Below, one piece after another: positions 1 through 7,322 of a stretch of DNA of 64,000 bases; the first letter of the stretch is position 1; the number at the start of each line of letters is the position of its first letter. The position numbers were made by a program, and so were the translations under genes. This DNA comes from Shewanella sp. Arc9-LZ (GTDB lineage: Bacteria > Pseudomonadota > Gammaproteobacteria > Enterobacterales > Shewanellaceae), in the NCBI RefSeq assembly GCF_010092445.1, contig NZ_CP048031.1:3968001-4032000 (forward strand). The letters run 5' to 3'. The notes under the pieces are model-generated. The model saw only the letters and a list, made by a program, of their open reading frames with translations. It searched no databases and was not told where the DNA came from.

Positions 1-635
1 GCTAGCAGATAAAGATAAATTCTTGATGGTACAGGTGGGTGCTGCTCATGACTTGTATAGTGGTCATATGATATTTTTTTTAGCTTATCTAGGAGTCTTT
101 TCCGAGGAGGTTTAACATCTACTACTGAATGAACAATCCTATTCAGCTTGCCATATAGAGAAACAAGGTAAGTTATAAAGTGTGGAGAAATGCCTTTTGA
201 TACCTTTTTTATAAATGATTCACTATTGAGTGCATTTATCAATCCCAATTCAGCACCACCAAAATCAGATATAATCTTAAGAAATCGAAGGTAAAACAAA
301 GTAGTAGTTGCGGAAAGGTTCTCATCAGGAGATAACCATGAGATTGAAAAAATGATAAGCTTTGCTTCATCCATAACATCGTTATAGTCAATACTTTTAT
401 TGCTTCCTTGCAATATTTTAAAATCAAGAAAACATCTTACACCTCTAGATGTGTAATAACTCCAATTCCAAGTGTTATCCTTAAAGTGTGATATAGCTTT
501 AGCCTCTAAATTTCTACCAACTACAAAATTTGGGCTAGGTCTTCCGGAGGTAGAAGTATATCTATCTGGTAGCAGGTCTTGAATAGTGTTGTCAGTATCG
601 ACAGACCAATCGTAGGTGATCGCGCTATTTACCAT
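1..635 (-). CDS. Third gene of recombinase trio, N-terminal part (runs off left edge)
   Basis: The frame is open from an ATG at 635 to the window edge, about 211 residues, with no stop. The ATG directly follows the stop of the preceding gene (TAA then ATG), which indicates translational coupling. The visible part is a hydrophilic N-terminal region with a segment near residues 200-208 (PPVPSRIYL) that resembles the linker before the core-binding domain of large tyrosine recombinases. That resemblance is from memory and weak. The catalytic region would lie outside the window. By position it should be the third member of a mobile-element trio: intB of strand-biased circularizing elements or gmtX of gamma-mobile-trio islands. 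The sequence here cannot decide between them. Confidence 0.6.
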   Translation of the reverse strand, partial: MVNSAITYDWSVDTDNTIQDLLPDRYTSTSGRPSPNFVVGRNLEAKAISHFKDNTWNWSYYTSRGVRCFLDFKILQGSNKSIDYNDVMDEAKLIIFSISWLSPDENLSATTTLFYLRFLKIISDFGGAELGLINALNSESFIKKVSKGISPHFITYLVSLYGKLNRIVHSVVDVKPPRKRLLDKLKKISYDHYTSHEQHPPVPSRIYLYLL

Positions 636-2486
636 TTAAGCAATCCCCAATTCCATTAATTGCTCATACTTATATTCCCAATATGAGTCCAATATCCCAT
701 CTTCGTAAACCTCCTTTCGCACCTGTTCAACCAATTTACCATCATCTTGCAATTCATCAGAAACTGCATTTAGGAAATATTCTATCCTCGCCAGTACCTC
801 ACCGTATAAGTTTTCAAAATTAGTCAAAGATGCACTCAAATACGATGTTGACTCTATACAAAATCGACAACTAAGTAGCTTTCTAACATCTTTTTCATCG
901 GCAAAGACTGAGTAGTTATCACACATTAAGCATCCTTCGCTTTTCTTACAATCAGATGGAACCTCATGGTTAGTATCGATATCACGTGTTGGATTACCAT
1001 AGTCCTTACAATTTCCAGTCCCCACTTCAACAAAGTCTCTTTCTCTTTGGGATTTAACCTTATTTCTTAATTTATCAAAGAAGCCTCCCATTTGTATCTC
1101 TGAATTTCTCTTCGTTCCGCTCGAATAGCACTCTTGCACTGTTCGAACGTCATTTTGTAATAACTCAGCAGTGGTATGAATATCTTTATTTGATAATAAC
1201 CACTCTGATTTATTGGCTCTCAGTTGCATATAGTAAATGTGAGAAAGATTAGCATCTATTTTTTGGAGTTGAATAAAAGAAGCTTTAAAGAAATCAAGCT
1301 TAAGCGGCCTCACCTCCAAAGTTTTTGTAAAACAAAAAAAAAGATAGTTTGTACTTCCAAATGCTTGTGTTATTTTTTGACGCATTTCTATATAACGGTC
1401 AAAGATCCTCTTGAATTCTGCCTTGATTGTAAATAAGACTTCTTTGTCATTTGCACGCCTTTTTATAGCTATAAAATCTTGAGACTCTTTTTTCATAACA
1501 TAACTATTTTGCCATTGTAGTTCCATCAATTGCTTTTTGTTTATCCCTGTAATTGATGCAAATAGAAATGCGAATGAGTAAATACCGATTCGAGCCAACC
1601 AATGCCATGCGTTATTACTGTAGTCATTGTGATATTCAATTAACTCTAGAGCAATCTTTTGAGCCCCGTTTAGCTTTCGCCCTTCAGCTAGAGCACTCTT
1701 AACCCCCACAATAACGCCCGACTTGTAATCGTAATATTTATAATTTGACTTATCTTCATCATTTGGATTAGCCCATTGCTTAACAGGAAATATCCAACAT
1801 TTATTATTTTTTCGACCTAAGTACACTGGAGAGTCCACACTCAAGGGAAAAGGCACTTCATTGATAATGGCATTTGATGTCGTATTAAAGAGGGCTTCGG
1901 CTATTGTTAAAGCCTTACCTAGATCATCTTCTGAAGGGGCTTCGGTGTGTTCAACTGAAGCCTTGCTTTTCTTAATAAGTTTCAAACCAAGTTCGATATT
2001 TTCTAGTTCTATTCCATCCCTCATAAATATGATTGCATCATACTGGTATCTCTGAGCAGCATTATTGGAAATAACTTTCAATCGAATTATTTGACGTAAA
2101 TAAGCGACATATTCTTCTAAAGCCAAACGAAAATCTGAATAATCGTATGACGATAGTAATTCTTTTTCATTGCAAAAAAACACAAATTTGCGGAAACGAC
2201 GCACTCGTGACGCAATAGAAGTTCTAGTAAGAGAGCCAACCTGTGAGTTAGCATATTCCAGTATTTTCTCTACAAGAGTCTCTCGATGCTTTCTCAAAGA
2301 GTTGGGAGCATATGTGAATCTTTTATTTGCCCCAGGCCCTAATTTCATAAAACAAAGTGCCCCTACATCTACCACTATGCCTTTAGCAACCTCCAACCCA
2401 CAGTGATGAAGATCATAAGGATTTACCGAGTAGGGCTCACCTAGTTTAGTTATTACAAGCTCACGAAGAATCAATGAATTAACCAT
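636..2486 (-). CDS. Recombinase-fold protein lacking catalytic residues (Tfp/GmtZ-like)
   Basis: This 616-residue protein is the middle gene of the trio. It overlaps the upstream recombinase gene by 8 bp and its stop abuts the next ATG. Its central region aligns by eye with tyrosine recombinases, but the key residues are gone. The first catalytic arginine region reads SITGINKKQL, and the HxxR box is replaced by a segment around LRANK. The C-terminal region has clustered cysteines (CKKSEGCLMC, LLSCRFC), suggesting a zinc site. Inference: it is a structural or regulatory partner in the recombination complex, like the tyrosine-recombinase-fold protein of strand-biased circularizing elements or the second protein of the gamma-mobile-trio. 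Which family it belongs to cannot be settled from sequence reading alone. Confidence 0.7.
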   Translation of the reverse strand: MVNSLILRELVITKLGEPYSVNPYDLHHCGLEVAKGIVVDVGALCFMKLGPGANKRFTYAPNSLRKHRETLVEKILEYANSQVGSLTRTSIASRVRRFRKFVFFCNEKELLSSYDYSDFRLALEEYVAYLRQIIRLKVISNNAAQRYQYDAIIFMRDGIELENIELGLKLIKKSKASVEHTEAPSEDDLGKALTIAEALFNTTSNAIINEVPFPLSVDSPVYLGRKNNKCWIFPVKQWANPNDEDKSNYKYYDYKSGVIVGVKSALAEGRKLNGAQKIALELIEYHNDYSNNAWHWLARIGIYSFAFLFASITGINKKQLMELQWQNSYVMKKESQDFIAIKRRANDKEVLFTIKAEFKRIFDRYIEMRQKITQAFGSTNYLFFCFTKTLEVRPLKLDFFKASFIQLQKIDANLSHIYYMQLRANKSEWLLSNKDIHTTAELLQNDVRTVQECYSSGTKRNSEIQMGGFFDKLRNKVKSQRERDFVEVGTGNCKDYGNPTRDIDTNHEVPSDCKKSEGCLMCDNYSVFADEKDVRKLLSCRFCIESTSYLSASLTNFENLYGEVLARIEYFLNAVSDELQDDGKLVEQVRKEVYEDGILDSYWEYKYEQLMELGIA

Positions 2487-3927
2487 GAACCCCTTCCTTT
2501 ATGCATTGTATAAGCTCTTTTAAATGCTTTTCATACTCAGATTGAGCTAGGTTTACTATTCCAATGTCCTGTCTGTAATCTAAGTAACCATCAGTTACTG
2601 TATAACTATCATGTCCCATACGGTCTCGTACAAGGTTCCTAACCTGAGTTAAAGTCATTTCACCAAGCTCAACTTTTAACAAAAGACTATCTGTGAGGTT
2701 CATACCAAATGTAGCTCTAAGATCGTGAAACTTAAAACTAAATGTCAGGCCAAGTTCTATCCTCATCATCGGTAGGAGTGTTTCTGCTATGAATGTTCTA
2801 ACGGTCGAGCCATCAGGTCTGGATCTTGTTTTCTGATTTGGATTAAATATGTTCCTTTCAACAGAATCCTCATAATAAGGAGACCCTCTGTTAGTTAAGA
2901 AAACATATGCATCATCATGACTTACATTGTCTCTTAGCGTCTTGTCTAACCATTTTTTTCTACGCTTTGTAATTTTATCACTAAAGATATAATCGATAAT
3001 AAAATCATGTAGCCAGCGTGGATATTCAATGGATATATTTTTCTCAGACTTTGTATCAACAGACGTACCAGAACCACATAAAAGCTTGATTAAGTCCACG
3101 TCATCAGAAAGTAAAGCATTAAAATGCTTTACTTTAAGGGTTAAAACCGTTTGAATTCTTGCTCCACTGAAAAGCGACATCAACATTATTAGAGTAATGG
3201 ACTCATTGCCTAACCTTATCAGACTACTTATAAGGACTTTTTGCTCATTCATATCTAGTGGGCGTAATCGACCACCATCAATAATCTTATACGTTTCTTT
3301 AAGTACTGATCTGCCTTTAATGGAAATATCAGTTGTTGTTACTGATTTAAACCTATTGAATCCGATGTTATCAGTGAAGGATATAAATCTTTCGCTTTCA
3401 CTCCAGGGTGGATGCTCAGGTTTAAAACCTCTTACTTTTTCCATCCATCTGTAAAATGCAATTGTTGTTTGCATAAACCTCTGGGCAGTGGATTTTGCAA
3501 TCTCCGCAGAGCGAACTTTAGATTTTAAATACGCCCTATACCTATAAGTAGGGCGATGCATTTTATTTTTAGGGAAAACTAAATAGTTAATCGAGTAGTC
3601 CTCAATGAACTCACGAAAATAGGCTATATCACCTGCAGCATTGGACTTCTGTATGACATGGAGGTCATCTGATTTATCTATAATCCTATCCCAAATAAAT
3701 AGACAACCATCATGCCAAGGGGAGCCATCTCTAGAAATCACCATATCTACTTGGTTAAAGTTAAGAACCTCACCATCATCACTCAACATTGGCTTATAGA
3801 AGTACCTCTCATTATCCTTAACAGTAGCTTCTGAAACTTCTTTGTCGCAAGTTTCTGTCAATGTAAAAACAGGAAGAGTGACTTTTCTAGCTCTATTTAA
3901 ACTCATAACCGCTCTTTTTTTCACCAT
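2479..3927 (-). CDS. Tyrosine recombinase/integrase, first gene of element trio
   Basis: This site-specific recombinase has the full tyrosine-recombinase signature when read from the ATG at 3927 (482 residues): Arg near 257 (SGARIQTVL), HxxR near 401-404 (FHDLRA), His near 439 (RMGHDS) and the nucleophile Tyr near 448 (DGYLDY). The long N-terminal part probably holds the core-binding domain (about 100-230). The frame is open up to 4092, but that extension runs antisense over the remnant of trmN6 and is not credible. ATG 3927 (MVKKRAV) or ATG 3906 (MSLNRAR, preceded by AAAGAG) are the likely starts. It is first of three tightly packed minus-strand genes, transcribed inward from the element end. 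It presumably catalyses integration and excision at the trmN6 junction. Confidence 0.85.
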   Translation of the reverse strand: MVKKRAVMSLNRARKVTLPVFTLTETCDKEVSEATVKDNERYFYKPMLSDDGEVLNFNQVDMVISRDGSPWHDGCLFIWDRIIDKSDDLHVIQKSNAAGDIAYFREFIEDYSINYLVFPKNKMHRPTYRYRAYLKSKVRSAEIAKSTAQRFMQTTIAFYRWMEKVRGFKPEHPPWSESERFISFTDNIGFNRFKSVTTTDISIKGRSVLKETYKIIDGGRLRPLDMNEQKVLISSLIRLGNESITLIMLMSLFSGARIQTVLTLKVKHFNALLSDDVDLIKLLCGSGTSVDTKSEKNISIEYPRWLHDFIIDYIFSDKITKRRKKWLDKTLRDNVSHDDAYVFLTNRGSPYYEDSVERNIFNPNQKTRSRPDGSTVRTFIAETLLPMMRIELGLTFSFKFHDLRATFGMNLTDSLLLKVELGEMTLTQVRNLVRDRMGHDSYTVTDGYLDYRQDIGIVNLAQSEYEKHLKELIQCIKEGVHG

Positions 3928-3946
3928 GAATATGTCCACATTAGAA

Positions 3947-3984
3947 AAACTAGCGCGCATTGTCAATAAGCCTAAACTAGCGCG
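3947..3984. repeat. 11-bp direct repeat at element/trmN6 junction
   Basis: AAACTAGCGCG occurs at 3947-3957 and again at 3974-3984, a period of 27 bp, between the first recombinase gene and the trmN6 remnant. A degenerate third copy (AAAATAGCGCA, 4019-4029) lies inside trmN6. Repeats at this position are candidates for recombinase-binding sites or the element end. That role is an inference from location. Confidence 0.6.
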
Positions 3985-4395
3985 TATCCACCCTACTTTG
4001 AGCAGGGCACACAAGCCAAAAATAGCGCACGAGCTGACGCCAGGCATACTAATACTTTGCCCTTTGCCGAATTGCAGAGTGTGATTAGCCAATTACTTGC
4101 TCCGCAAGGCACGGCAAGTGTTATTTTGCCACTGCAAAGTCTAGCCAGTTTTACTCAACAACTTAACACTTATGGTCTATTCGTTGCTAAGCAGCTTGAT
4201 ATCATTAGCATTGAAGGAAAGGTCGCTAACCGATCAATATTGGCAATCCAGCACTACCCAACAACAACTGAACCACAAACACTCACTCATCCTGCTGTTG
4301 AAACTCAGTATCATCAAATGACGATCCGCGACAAACAAGAGCGATATAGCGAAACGATGATAGATTTATGCCGCCCATTCTACTTAAAGCTTTAG
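3985..4395 (+). pseudogene. trmN6: trmN6 (yfiC) 3' fragment, disrupted by the element
   Basis: This is the C-terminal part of tRNA1(Val) adenine-37 N6-methyltransferase. Reading in frame from about 3985 gives YPPYFEQGTQAKNSARADAR and continues to a stop at 4395. It aligns with the E. coli YfiC region that begins at the catalytic NPPY motif (PPYxxQG, RAxAR, then L near FAELQ, ILP, and a C-terminal AFYL/PFYL-like end). The frame closes at a stop at 3973 and the motif's essential Asn is replaced, so sequence left of about 3985 belongs to the element. The first in-frame start-like codon is TTG 4057, which would give a 112-residue protein without the methyl-transfer motif. Inference: the gene is inactive unless an intact copy exists elsewhere. 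The 5' part should lie at the far end of the element, outside the window. Confidence 0.8.
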
Positions 4396-4448: not shown

Positions 4449-5669
4449 ATGCAATTTGAAGATTTCCAGCTCGACCCTAGCTTATTAGAGTCACTCAAGG
4501 CCATGGGACACAACACCCCTACCACCATTCAGCAGCAAACTATTCCATTGGCCATGGATCAGCGGGATATTTTAGCGCGTGCGCCAACTGGCACCGGTAA
4601 GACGGCCAGTTTTTTACTGCCTGCTTTACAGCACCTTATTGACTTCCCTCGTCGTTTTGAAGGCCAAGCACGTATTTTGGTGCTAACGCCAACGCGTGAA
4701 TTAGCCAGTCAAATTCATCGTTATGCAAGTCATTTAGCCACTGGGCTTGAGCTTAATATCGTCATTATTACTGGTGGTGTTCCATATGGCCCACAAGAAG
4801 AAGCACTTGCAGACAATGTTGATTTATTAATCGCCACCCCAGGTCGATTAATGGAATACCTAGATAAAGATAAATTTGACGCCACTGAAGTTGAAATTTT
4901 AATTATTGATGAAGCTGACCGCATGCTTGATATGGGTTTCTCATCAGTAGTGCAATCAATTGCCATTGAAGCTCAAGGCCGCAAACAGAACATGCTGTTT
5001 TCTGCCACGCTTGAAGGTAATGGGGTTAACCGTTTCGCTCGCGACTTATTAACCGATCCCGTAATGGTCGATGTTGAAGCGCCACGCAGTGAAAAAGCTA
5101 AAGTACACCAATGGGTTCACTTGGCCGACGATCAAGCACATAAATTTGCATTGTTATGCCATATTCTTCAACAAGAAAATGTTACGCGCACCATTGTGTT
5201 TGTTAAAACTCGCGAAATGGTCGCCAGCCTTGAAGGCTTATTACTAAAAGCCAATATCCCATGTGCATTTATGCGCGGCGATATGGAACAGAAAAAACGT
5301 TTCCAAGCATTGGGTCGTTTTTCTAAAGGCGAAGTTAATGTACTTTTGGCGACAGATGTTGCAGCTCGAGGAATCGATGTTGATGACATTACTCATGTGA
5401 TTAACTTTGACATGCCACGTTCTGCTGACGCCTATGTTCATCGAATTGGCCGTACCGCTCGCGCTGGCGCAAAAGGAACCGCAATATCACTAGTTGAAGC
5501 GCACGATATGCGTATTGTGTCTAAAATTGAACGATACATTGAGATCCCACTGAAACGTCGTGTGATTGAAGAACTTCGTCCTAAACACAAAGAAGCTAAA
5601 GTGCCTGGTAAGAAAAAAGCCAATGCAAAAGATGCTCGAGTTAAATCGAAAAAATATAAGAAAAAGTAA
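4449..5669 (+). CDS. srmB: ATP-dependent RNA helicase SrmB
   Basis: This DEAD-box RNA helicase has 406 residues, and SrmB proteins act in early assembly of the large ribosomal subunit. The Q motif region (TTIQQQTIP), Walker A (APTGTGKTAS), PTRELA, DEAD (IIDEADRMLDMGF), SAT, and the motif VI segment (HRIGRTARAG) are all visible in order. A lysine-rich tail (about 380-406) ends the protein, as is usual for RNA-binding extensions. The N-terminus and the adjacency to trmN6 (yfiC), which also neighbours srmB in E. coli, favour SrmB over the RhlE or DeaD types. It lies 53 bp downstream of the trmN6 remnant on the same strand. A TATAAT-like stretch at 4411-4416 could provide its own promoter despite the upstream insertion. 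Confidence 0.9.
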   Translation: MQFEDFQLDPSLLESLKAMGHNTPTTIQQQTIPLAMDQRDILARAPTGTGKTASFLLPALQHLIDFPRRFEGQARILVLTPTRELASQIHRYASHLATGLELNIVIITGGVPYGPQEEALADNVDLLIATPGRLMEYLDKDKFDATEVEILIIDEADRMLDMGFSSVVQSIAIEAQGRKQNMLFSATLEGNGVNRFARDLLTDPVMVDVEAPRSEKAKVHQWVHLADDQAHKFALLCHILQQENVTRTIVFVKTREMVASLEGLLLKANIPCAFMRGDMEQKKRFQALGRFSKGEVNVLLATDVAARGIDVDDITHVINFDMPRSADAYVHRIGRTARAGAKGTAISLVEAHDMRIVSKIERYIEIPLKRRVIEELRPKHKEAKVPGKKKANAKDARVKSKKYKKK

Positions 5670-6122: not shown

Positions 6123-7322
6123 ATGATAAAAATCATACTAAGAAGATTGTCACCACTCTTGATCATTATTGTATTTGTTGGGCTAGCCCTGGCACTTATT
6201 AGCACCCAAGAGACACCCGAGCAAAAAGATGAAGCCATCAGTGTACCGATAATTGATGTGCAAACCGTTACGCCGCAAACCTTATCGCTTAACTTACCCT
6301 CCTATGGTGTGGTTAACCCTAAATATAAAACTCAACTTGTCACTGAAGTTCAAGGGCGCATGCTAAGTATTTCAGCCAATTTTGTTGCCGGTGGCGTAGT
6401 TAAAAAAGGCGAGCAACTAGCCATTATCGAACCATCTGATTACGAAGCTGACCTTATTCAGGCTGAAGCGACTGTCGCACAGGCCACTGCAGCATTAAAT
6501 GAAGAGAAAGCCCGCGGTGTTGTGGCTAAAATTGAATTTAAAGATTTTGGTAAAGGCTTACCGCCAGAACTTGGGTTACGTATCCCACAACTGAAAAAAG
6601 AACAAGCCAACGTCAAGTATGCAGAAGCGGCATTAGCCCGTGCACAACGTAACTTAGCCCGCACCGTTATTCGCGCACCATTTGACGGCATCATTAAGGC
6701 CCGCAATGTCGACTTAGGCCAATATGTCACGTTAGGCACAAATTTAGGTGAACTATACGACACCAGTATCGCCGAAATCAGATTGCCGTTAGCAAATGAA
6801 GATCTCGCTTATTTAGAGTCGGTCGATAATCCTGAAACAGCAGTCACACTCACAGCATTGCTGGCGGGTAAACAAGTCTCTTGGCAAGGCAATATAGTGC
6901 GCAGCGAAAATGTCATCGACGAACAAACTCGCATGGTCTATTTGGTAGCAGAAATTCATGATCCCTATTTGCGTAACAACAAAACCGAAGGCCAACTACC
7001 TCTAAAATATGGCAGTTTTGTTAATGCCGTGATCACAGGTCGAACCGTTAATGATGTGGTAAAACTGCCTCGCCATGTAGTACGAAATGGTCAGGTTGCT
7101 GTAGTAAGTGCCGACAATATTATCGAAATACGCCCAGTGAATATTATTCGCTCAGACGTTGACTCCATTTATATTCAAGGCAGTTTCAAAGCGAATGAGC
7201 GCGTATCAACCACTAGCATCAACAGCTTAAACTCTGGACAAGCCATTAAAGTACTTGGTGAAGAAACCAAAACTGAACCAGTCGATACTGACACCCAAGC
7301 CGCTACGACTGCAGGTGAATAA
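6123..7322 (+). CDS. RND efflux periplasmic adaptor (membrane fusion protein)
   Basis: This 399-residue adaptor subunit belongs to a tripartite resistance-nodulation-division pump. An N-terminal membrane anchor (about 10-27, rich in Leu/Ile/Val) is followed by the lipoyl/barrel-sandwich half-motif (VQGRMLSISANFVAGGVVKKG), a helical hairpin with Ala/Glu/Lys-rich segments (about 110-180), the second half-motif (RAPFDGIIKARNVDLGQYV) and a beta-barrel domain. The length fits the HlyD/AcrA family. The stop is 2 bp before the ATG of the RND gene, so the two are certainly cotranscribed. No outer-membrane TolC-type gene is present here, so an unlinked channel must be used. Substrate is unknown. Confidence 0.9.
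   Translation: MIKIILRRLSPLLIIIVFVGLALALISTQETPEQKDEAISVPIIDVQTVTPQTLSLNLPSYGVVNPKYKTQLVTEVQGRMLSISANFVAGGVVKKGEQLAIIEPSDYEADLIQAEATVAQATAALNEEKARGVVAKIEFKDFGKGLPPELGLRIPQLKKEQANVKYAEAALARAQRNLARTVIRAPFDGIIKARNVDLGQYVTLGTNLGELYDTSIAEIRLPLANEDLAYLESVDNPETAVTLTALLAGKQVSWQGNIVRSENVIDEQTRMVYLVAEIHDPYLRNNKTEGQLPLKYGSFVNAVITGRTVNDVVKLPRHVVRNGQVAVVSADNIIEIRPVNIIRSDVDSIYIQGSFKANERVSTTSINSLNSGQAIKVLGEETKTEPVDTDTQAATTAGE

Follow-up and report, generated by a model that had tools for sequence, protein, structure and literature searches.

Does the mobile element that ends inside trmN6 at this locus rob its host of a tRNA modification, or has the broken gene been replaced? The DNA analysed (the window, 64 kb) is G000:C1:3968001-4032000 of a complete one-contig genome of 4,911,031 bases (G000), which its gene content marks as probably that of a Shewanella. 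From the letters of the window, the preliminary description had proposed that an element with a trio of recombinases stops within the catalytic NPPY motif of trmN6, that the TrmN6 C-terminus is in frame only from PPYF, and that a stop and a replaced Asn codon precede it. These points were all borne out. The junction lies at the Pro-Pro codons, at window 3988, from where the plus strand reads in frame from PPYF to FYLKL and is 88% identical over 135 residues to the intact TrmN6 of a relative (G043), from residue 117 onward; the codon ahead of PPYF is TAT, replacing the Asn codon, and an in-frame TAA is found upstream at window 3973-3975. Leftward extension, which that description had advised, indeed revealed the 5' half of trmN6 together with the other end of the island, and a DNA search with the relative's region led to the same site as the protein search. 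The features of the split gene and its surroundings are as follows.

Window 3988-4395, plus strand: host trmN6, 3' part, running from the first Pro in NPPYF as far as the stop codon (protein match to a relative).
G000:C1:3938082-3938435: 5' part of the host trmN6 (protein match, residues 1-118, 93% identity).
Window 3988-3993, plus strand: hexamer CCACCC, adjoining the intA-side end and encoding Pro-Pro of NPPY (junction sequence).
G000:3938430-3938435: hexamer CCTCCT, in the far-end flank, Pro-Pro codons (junction sequence).
G000:C1:3938436-3971987: the whole island, 33,552 bp, with its intA side at the right, in the window (both junctions and both gene parts).
Window 1-3987, minus strand: right-hand 3,987 bp of the island (junctions).
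Window 4449-5669, plus strand: srmB-like RNA helicase gene of the host flank, 406 aa (ORF list).

The host trmN6 is thus in two parts, broken at the NPPY codons and separated by a 33,552-bp insert, and the 5' part ends at the very Pro-Pro codons where the 3' part begins. The left junction reads TTTGTAAC-CCTCCT-ACATCC and the right junction GCGTAT-CCACCC-TACTTT; from these positions, the island was delimited as G000:3938436-3971987. One hexamer flanks it on each side, and the two differ (CCTCCT vs CCACCC), although both encode Pro-Pro. No full-length trmN6 reads through the junction. Restoration of the gene by the far end was rejected, since the 5' part reads NPPTSKF and then meets a stop, and so was a pseudogene made by point mutation without insertion, since the 5' half was found 33.5 kb away.

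Empty sites were sought in relatives, as had also been suggested. A single intact trmN6 (NPPYF) was found in six of them (L005, L006, L007, L119, L120, L121), and in the first three the match continues from trmN6 into srmB; in E. coli, too, srmB adjoins trmN. A protein search returned a TrmN6 match in 127 of 127 genomes of the genus, G000 being the only one with three matches, namely the two parts and one complete copy. Partial matches appeared in the genus list for G102 (residues 1-175), G027 (1-216) and G025 (1-205). Separately, trmN6 of another genome (G023:C1:3262783-3263561) appears as two abutting pieces, probably through a frameshift. That the insertion was seen in a single genome might suggest an assembly error or an ordinary rearrangement in place of a site-specific insertion; however, the genome is one contig, the same pair of codons marks both junctions, and the motif of the intA-side end is common to nine other islands, which leaves this explanation a very slight chance.

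The island carries its recombination genes at its right end, in a minus-strand operon of four genes in the order active, degenerate and active recombinase and small protein. The first three genes and the repeats of the island end lie at the following positions; the fourth gene encodes 125 aa.

Window 2479-3906, minus strand: intA, the first gene of the core, encoding an active tyrosine recombinase of 475 aa counted from the ATG at 3906 (aligned catalytic residues).
Window 636-2486, minus strand: second core gene, degenerate recombinase-like (tfp-like), 616 aa (alignment).
G000:3966632-3968635, minus strand, with the N-terminal part at window 3-635: third gene of the core, encoding an intB-like active tyrosine recombinase of 667 aa (alignment).
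Window 3949-3957 and 3976-3984, plus strand: two copies of ACTAGCGCG inside the island end (junction sequence and end alignment).

The core proteins were aligned with those of related loci, using rows that covered at least 70% of the query. All 56 IntA rows have the Arg, HxxR and Tyr, and all but one (55 of 56) also have the second His. The first catalytic Arg was absent from all 40 rows of the second protein, while the third protein had the full catalytic set in 34/34, with the residues starting from position 315, after a long N-terminus. None of the four proteins matched Pfam or NCBIfam at E 1e-3. All four matched, colinearly, a plasmid element of Stutzerimonas (E 3e-28, 4e-9, 1e-10, 1e-11) and one of Paraburkholderia (E 7e-110 to 5e-32).

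A direct repeat had been noted at the junction, and it is present there, but not as a duplication of the target that flanks the element: both ACTAGCGCG copies are 27 bp apart inside the element, for which reason a target-site duplication was rejected. Judged from their sequence and placement, the copies are probably recombinase-binding repeats. Ten intA-side ends, picked for a readable interrupted gene, were aligned. All ten start with (A/G)(T/C)A(C/T), positions 9-12 read AAGT or TAGT in nine (AACT in L112), and all have TGGAC about 50 bp inside. A 10-base repeat at an offset of 27 or 28 had at least 8 bases matching in five of the ten. The repeat of the present island matches at 10 of 10 bases; among 5000 shuffled ends (500 for each of the ten elements, any offset of 20-35), a match of 10 bases never occurred, and 90 had at least 8 matching.

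Beyond the core lies the cargo. Ten of its proteins were scanned for defence genes; MkoA scored 1284 bits and MkoB 227 bits, LmuB-like and OLD-like proteins also scored, and three of the ten did not score. The stretch G000:C1:3940201-3952974, left of the window, thus has the look of a defence island, with Mokosh-type MkoA/MkoB, a Lamassu-like LmuB ATPase and an OLD/GajA-like protein.

The preliminary description expected the insertion to cost the cell m6A37 in tRNA1(Val) unless the far end restored the gene. The far end restores nothing, and the expectation is still not supported, because the island itself contains a complete, diverged trmN6. This spare was invisible in the window, since it ends 2.2 kb to the left of it.

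G000:3965082-3965795, minus strand: island trmN6, complete, 237 aa, GTG start (ORF), 462 bp downstream of the fourth core gene.

Its product is 41% identical to the genus protein; when the pair is compared directly, the interrupted trmN6 of the window and the island copy are 34% identical over 137 aa (E 3e-23). Membership of the TrmN6/YfiC/TrmM family was judged by motif and full-length model match, and the island protein has both. The NPPY and the invariant columns are present in an alignment with TrmN of E. coli, Vibrio and the genus, and residues 4-237 match positions 10-244 of the NCBI TrmN model. It scored 223.8 bits on this model, where the native genus protein had 214.9 and three Vibrionaceae proteins 224-237; the curated cut-off of 350 was reached neither by it nor by the six other TrmN proteins tested. 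In a tree of 65 rows, it fell among Vibrionaceae-like TrmN6 proteins, forking with three near relatives (99/96), and the 26 genus rows were set apart from it (100/99). Its closest metagenome relatives among the matches listed were 82%, 76% and 76% identical, on short contigs, and relatives in other samples, again among those listed, spanned 66-82%. A structure was predicted for 218 residues, the first 19 being absent from the database copy, with a pLDDT of 88.8 and a pTM of 0.86. When this model was compared with the PDB by Foldseek, 3lpm ranked first and the Mycoplasma TrmM (7wm6, 7wm5) took ranks 2-5, in keeping with a TrmM fold. TrmM makes m6A37.

From sequence and model together, it is most likely that the island copy goes on making the tRNA1(Val) A37 N6-methyltransferase, an activity that is predicted here, and the cell probably keeps its TrmN6 function through this copy. 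Given a complete, native-like trmN6 on the island, with this predicted function, a loss of m6A37 is not expected. The modification would nonetheless be lost if the island copy were silent or acted on another substrate, for which its mere 41% identity to the native protein and its GTG start might speak. Against this, the copy scores on the TrmN model like native TrmN proteins, it has the 66-82% relatives just described and a complete predicted fold, and TrmN6 occurs in every one of the 127 genus genomes, so that its loss would be unusual; we hold a real loss to be improbable. The host halves themselves bear no sign of decay: comparisons with G000, 11 of 12 of them computable, gave a dN/dS of 0.05-0.12, and those among intact copies (9 of 10 computable) gave 0.07-0.13. 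The insertion may therefore be so recent that selection on the spare does not yet show.

How the island relates to known elements was considered next. A close plan is that of the strand-biased circularizing integrative element (SE) SE-6283 (Tn6283; PMC5991714, PMC9345347, PMC10214605), which, in the available text of these papers, shares with the island the core order of active, degenerate, active and small, a hexamer on each side, and a conserved housekeeping gene as target. Both also have a diverged copy of the target right after the fourth core gene, which in SE-6283 is bcp (pSEA1 6639-7112); the targets themselves differ, being bcp and trmN6. In SE terms, the island shows an R-H-R-Y recombinase, a degenerate one, a large R-H-R-Y one and a small protein, with unequal 6-bp footprint hexamers. 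IntA and IntB are recognisably similar to those of SE-6283 (20%, E 1e-13, and 21%, E 1e-18), whereas no Tfp or Srap homologue was recovered (second protein, phmmer E 0.23; fourth protein, BLAST E 0.45, phmmer E 0.054), and since these two proteins lack a match to SE-6283 we did not file the island as an SE. It may be noted that the fourth core gene of SE-6283 on pSEA1 (L177:6027-6524) is annotated as a bacterioferritin comigratory protein, a name apparently borrowed from the neighbouring bcp. Published SEs are confined to Gammaproteobacteria; the SE gene order, as an active-degenerate-active-small operon, was also observed in Burkholderiales (L075, L082 and L102, within the L060-L115 set).

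The general principle of breaking a gene and bringing a spare is already in print, as the accessible portions of the papers describe it, for bcp (PMC5991714, PMC9345347) and recA (PMC4405046). Tn6283 in the bcp gene of E. coli carries a peroxidase 54.8% identical to the bcp product, which may compensate, and its report likens this to the recA mobile element (PMC5991714); apart from the one on pSEA1, the SE-6283-like elements shown in the available part of the later paper lie in bcp, each carrying a bcp (PMC9345347). The recA island of Vibrio cholerae carries a divergent recA (PMC4405046, in the portion available) and resembles ours in having a specific site in a core gene and a divergent copy on board; its target is recA where ours is trmN6, and the likeness drawn here is one of target site and copy. 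A literature search, with supplements and most subscription papers outside its scope, returned no report of an island in trmN6, and a term search of the available text of PMC10214605 and PMC10121019 found no mention of yfiC or trmN.

GInts were the other candidates, compared by their published description. Like the island, they combine three genes of recombinase type with a fourth, small one, have imperfect direct repeats and measure about 35 kb, and they occur in beta- and gammaproteobacteria, as do the island's relatives; like them, the island has the three recombinase-type genes and the small gene in one operon at one end, with the cargo beyond. In the GInt papers, however, it is the third protein (GinC) that is without the first catalytic Arg, whereas in the island core it is the second. 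As this Arg is kept in 34 of 34 third proteins and missing in 40 of 40 second ones, the island was not filed as a GInt. GInt insertion is moreover described as probably not fully inactivating its targets, while the island cuts trmN6 mid-gene. The GInt paper, in its available part, describes no spare target copies, although GInts located at a ribonucleotide reductase gene that is duplicated are mentioned (PMC5385486).

The island trmN6 could instead be chance cargo, its homology to the target having no function. Islands do carry many foreign genes, and the copy is Vibrionaceae-like. The related islands bear on this directly, as several of them also break a gene and hold a copy of it. In Acinetobacter (L060, L063, L064), a host gene for an HExxH protein without a Pfam family is cut inside the HE motif, and an intact copy follows the fourth core gene on the opposite strand; in G861 and G863 the spare sits between the two host parts, which are some 18 and 24 kb from each other, and in G862 the contig ends ahead of the far part. 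The gene ssb was considered as the target of spare-carrying islands and discarded as wrong. In Pseudomonas (L091) and Cupriavidus (L102), the host gloA is cut after EDPD and an intact copy follows the core; the genome of L091 has a third gloA-like gene (51%). The far ends of these two islands were not found; a gloA-island far end was located in G859, but not in G858 (120 kb after 417001) nor in G860 (36 kb). In Onishia (L065), the host umuC lacks everything ahead of NNDGC, and some 5 kb past the core there is a copy of 471 aa (52%); in Halomonas (L066), umuC is cut in the same way and a 471-aa copy is on another contig. Unequal flanking hexamers were also seen in G861, G863 and G859. The break sites are accordingly NPPY of trmN6, EDPD-GYKIEL of gloA, NNDGC of umuC and HE of the HExxH protein. 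The EDPD-GYKIEL stretch of the gloA product presumably has a metal-ligand role.

Other islands have no spare. One (L095) breaks gloA in a genome whose only other gloA-like frame is a weaker one in two pieces (58% and 38%), two (L094, L112) break comM with only weak family matches in the genome (40 bits or less), and one (L092) breaks a DUF924 gene with two partial matches only. In the Aeromonas case (L094, contig C47 of G865), comM is split by an island about 13 kb long; its C-terminal part adjoins intA, the ChlI domain is about 13 kb off, and no strong second comM was found in that genome. Two further islands, in ychF (L097, L104), sit at the end of the gene and leave its Pfam domain complete, with no ychF copy in the cargo seen. 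Leaving out L072 (comEC) and L079 (HExxH), there were 12 islands that break inside a gene and have a decided outcome: eight had a spare (seven on the same contig) and four had none.

Whether such pairings arise by chance was examined in 39 of the 58 loci found with the IntA profile, namely those with a fourth gene, a host flank and some cargo, by comparing the ORFs of the last 1.3 kb before intA with the cargo seen (E 1e-5). A homologous pair was found in seven of the 39, of which six concern the interrupted gene and one (L093) a transposon-type gene common to other loci. With the window included, 17 of 1560 ordered cross-locus pairs matched, ten between loci with the same target and seven unrelated. 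Own-target copies therefore stand at 6/39, as against 7/1560 for cross pairs of unlike targets. A looser version (whole flank, E 1e-4) gave 10/39; its extra pairs, in L067, L087 and L109, do not lie at the junction. Although the comM, DUF924 and single gloA islands without a spare fit mere chance cargo, it is these counts, and the place of the copy immediately behind the fourth core gene in the window, L060, L063, L064, L091 and L102, that make us doubt it strongly.

The preliminary description had further supposed that an element aimed at the conserved motif would find sites in many gammaproteobacteria. This was not shown. The best IntA relative besides the query was 31% identical among 129 genus genomes, 37% among 394 order genomes and 33% among 369 class genomes, each search with its own E-value limit, and none revealed another island in trmN6. 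None of the 58 loci from the IntA-profile scan of genome contigs had a TrmN6 match at E 1e-3. Searches of plasmids with IntA and with the island TrmN6, and of viral contigs with the latter, likewise gave no second island in trmN6. When proteins were paired by equal contig size among the best 120 matches each, no TrmN6-clade protein paired with a recombinase; one IntA and one fourth-gene homologue did share a 41,101-bp contig among the matches listed. In passing, one homologue of the fourth core protein (P0268) bears the source name Cas5-associated protein, probably a misannotation, and four plasmid-collection records of 4.8-4.9 Mb (H18, H19, H21, H23) look like whole chromosomes.

Taken together, we consider it likely that an island with a four-gene core broke trmN6 at NPPY and supplies its own diverged, functional trmN6. 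The 33.5-kb island would have inserted at the hexamer that encodes the Pro-Pro of NPPY, cutting the gene in two, and the complete, diverged trmN6 beside its core would take over TrmN6 function, provided that it is expressed and methylates tRNA1(Val). The insertion would then cost the host little, while loss of the island without restoration of the gene would cost it TrmN6 function. According to the available text on SEs, the central 6 bp of a new target adjoins the intA-side end and the travelling 6 bp is left at the other (PMC10214605). By this rule, CCACCC would be the host's own target hexamer and CCTCCT would have come with the island. Since the hexamers need not match, and Pro-Pro is encoded by 16 of 4096 hexamers, the far-end CCTCCT hints at derivation from an earlier trmN6 target. 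The four of 12 islands that break a gene without a spare, and the lack of a second trmN6 island, count against this explanation. We put forward more tentatively, and with rather more doubt than belief, that breaking and replacing is the general design of four-gene recombinase islands, each lineage being tuned to the codons of one conserved, often catalytic, motif, at which the target scarcely varies, and carrying a diverged replacement of that gene beside its core. If this is true, target specificity and replacement travel as one unit, tying the host to the island.

The locus is thereby explained in outline: trmN6 is a new target of a design that had been known from isolated examples, and the design is more widely spread than these. 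Viewed alone, the junction would suggest that trmN6 was lost; an apparent loss of a tRNA modification becomes a gene swap, in which the one complete trmN6 left to the strain is Vibrionaceae-like and belongs to a mobile island that also bears defence genes. The layout makes it possible to predict which gene such islands target and where they end. Together with gloA, umuC and the HExxH gene, it makes the separate cases of bcp and recA appear as instances of a single, repeated strategy, whose occurrences in genomes can be counted.
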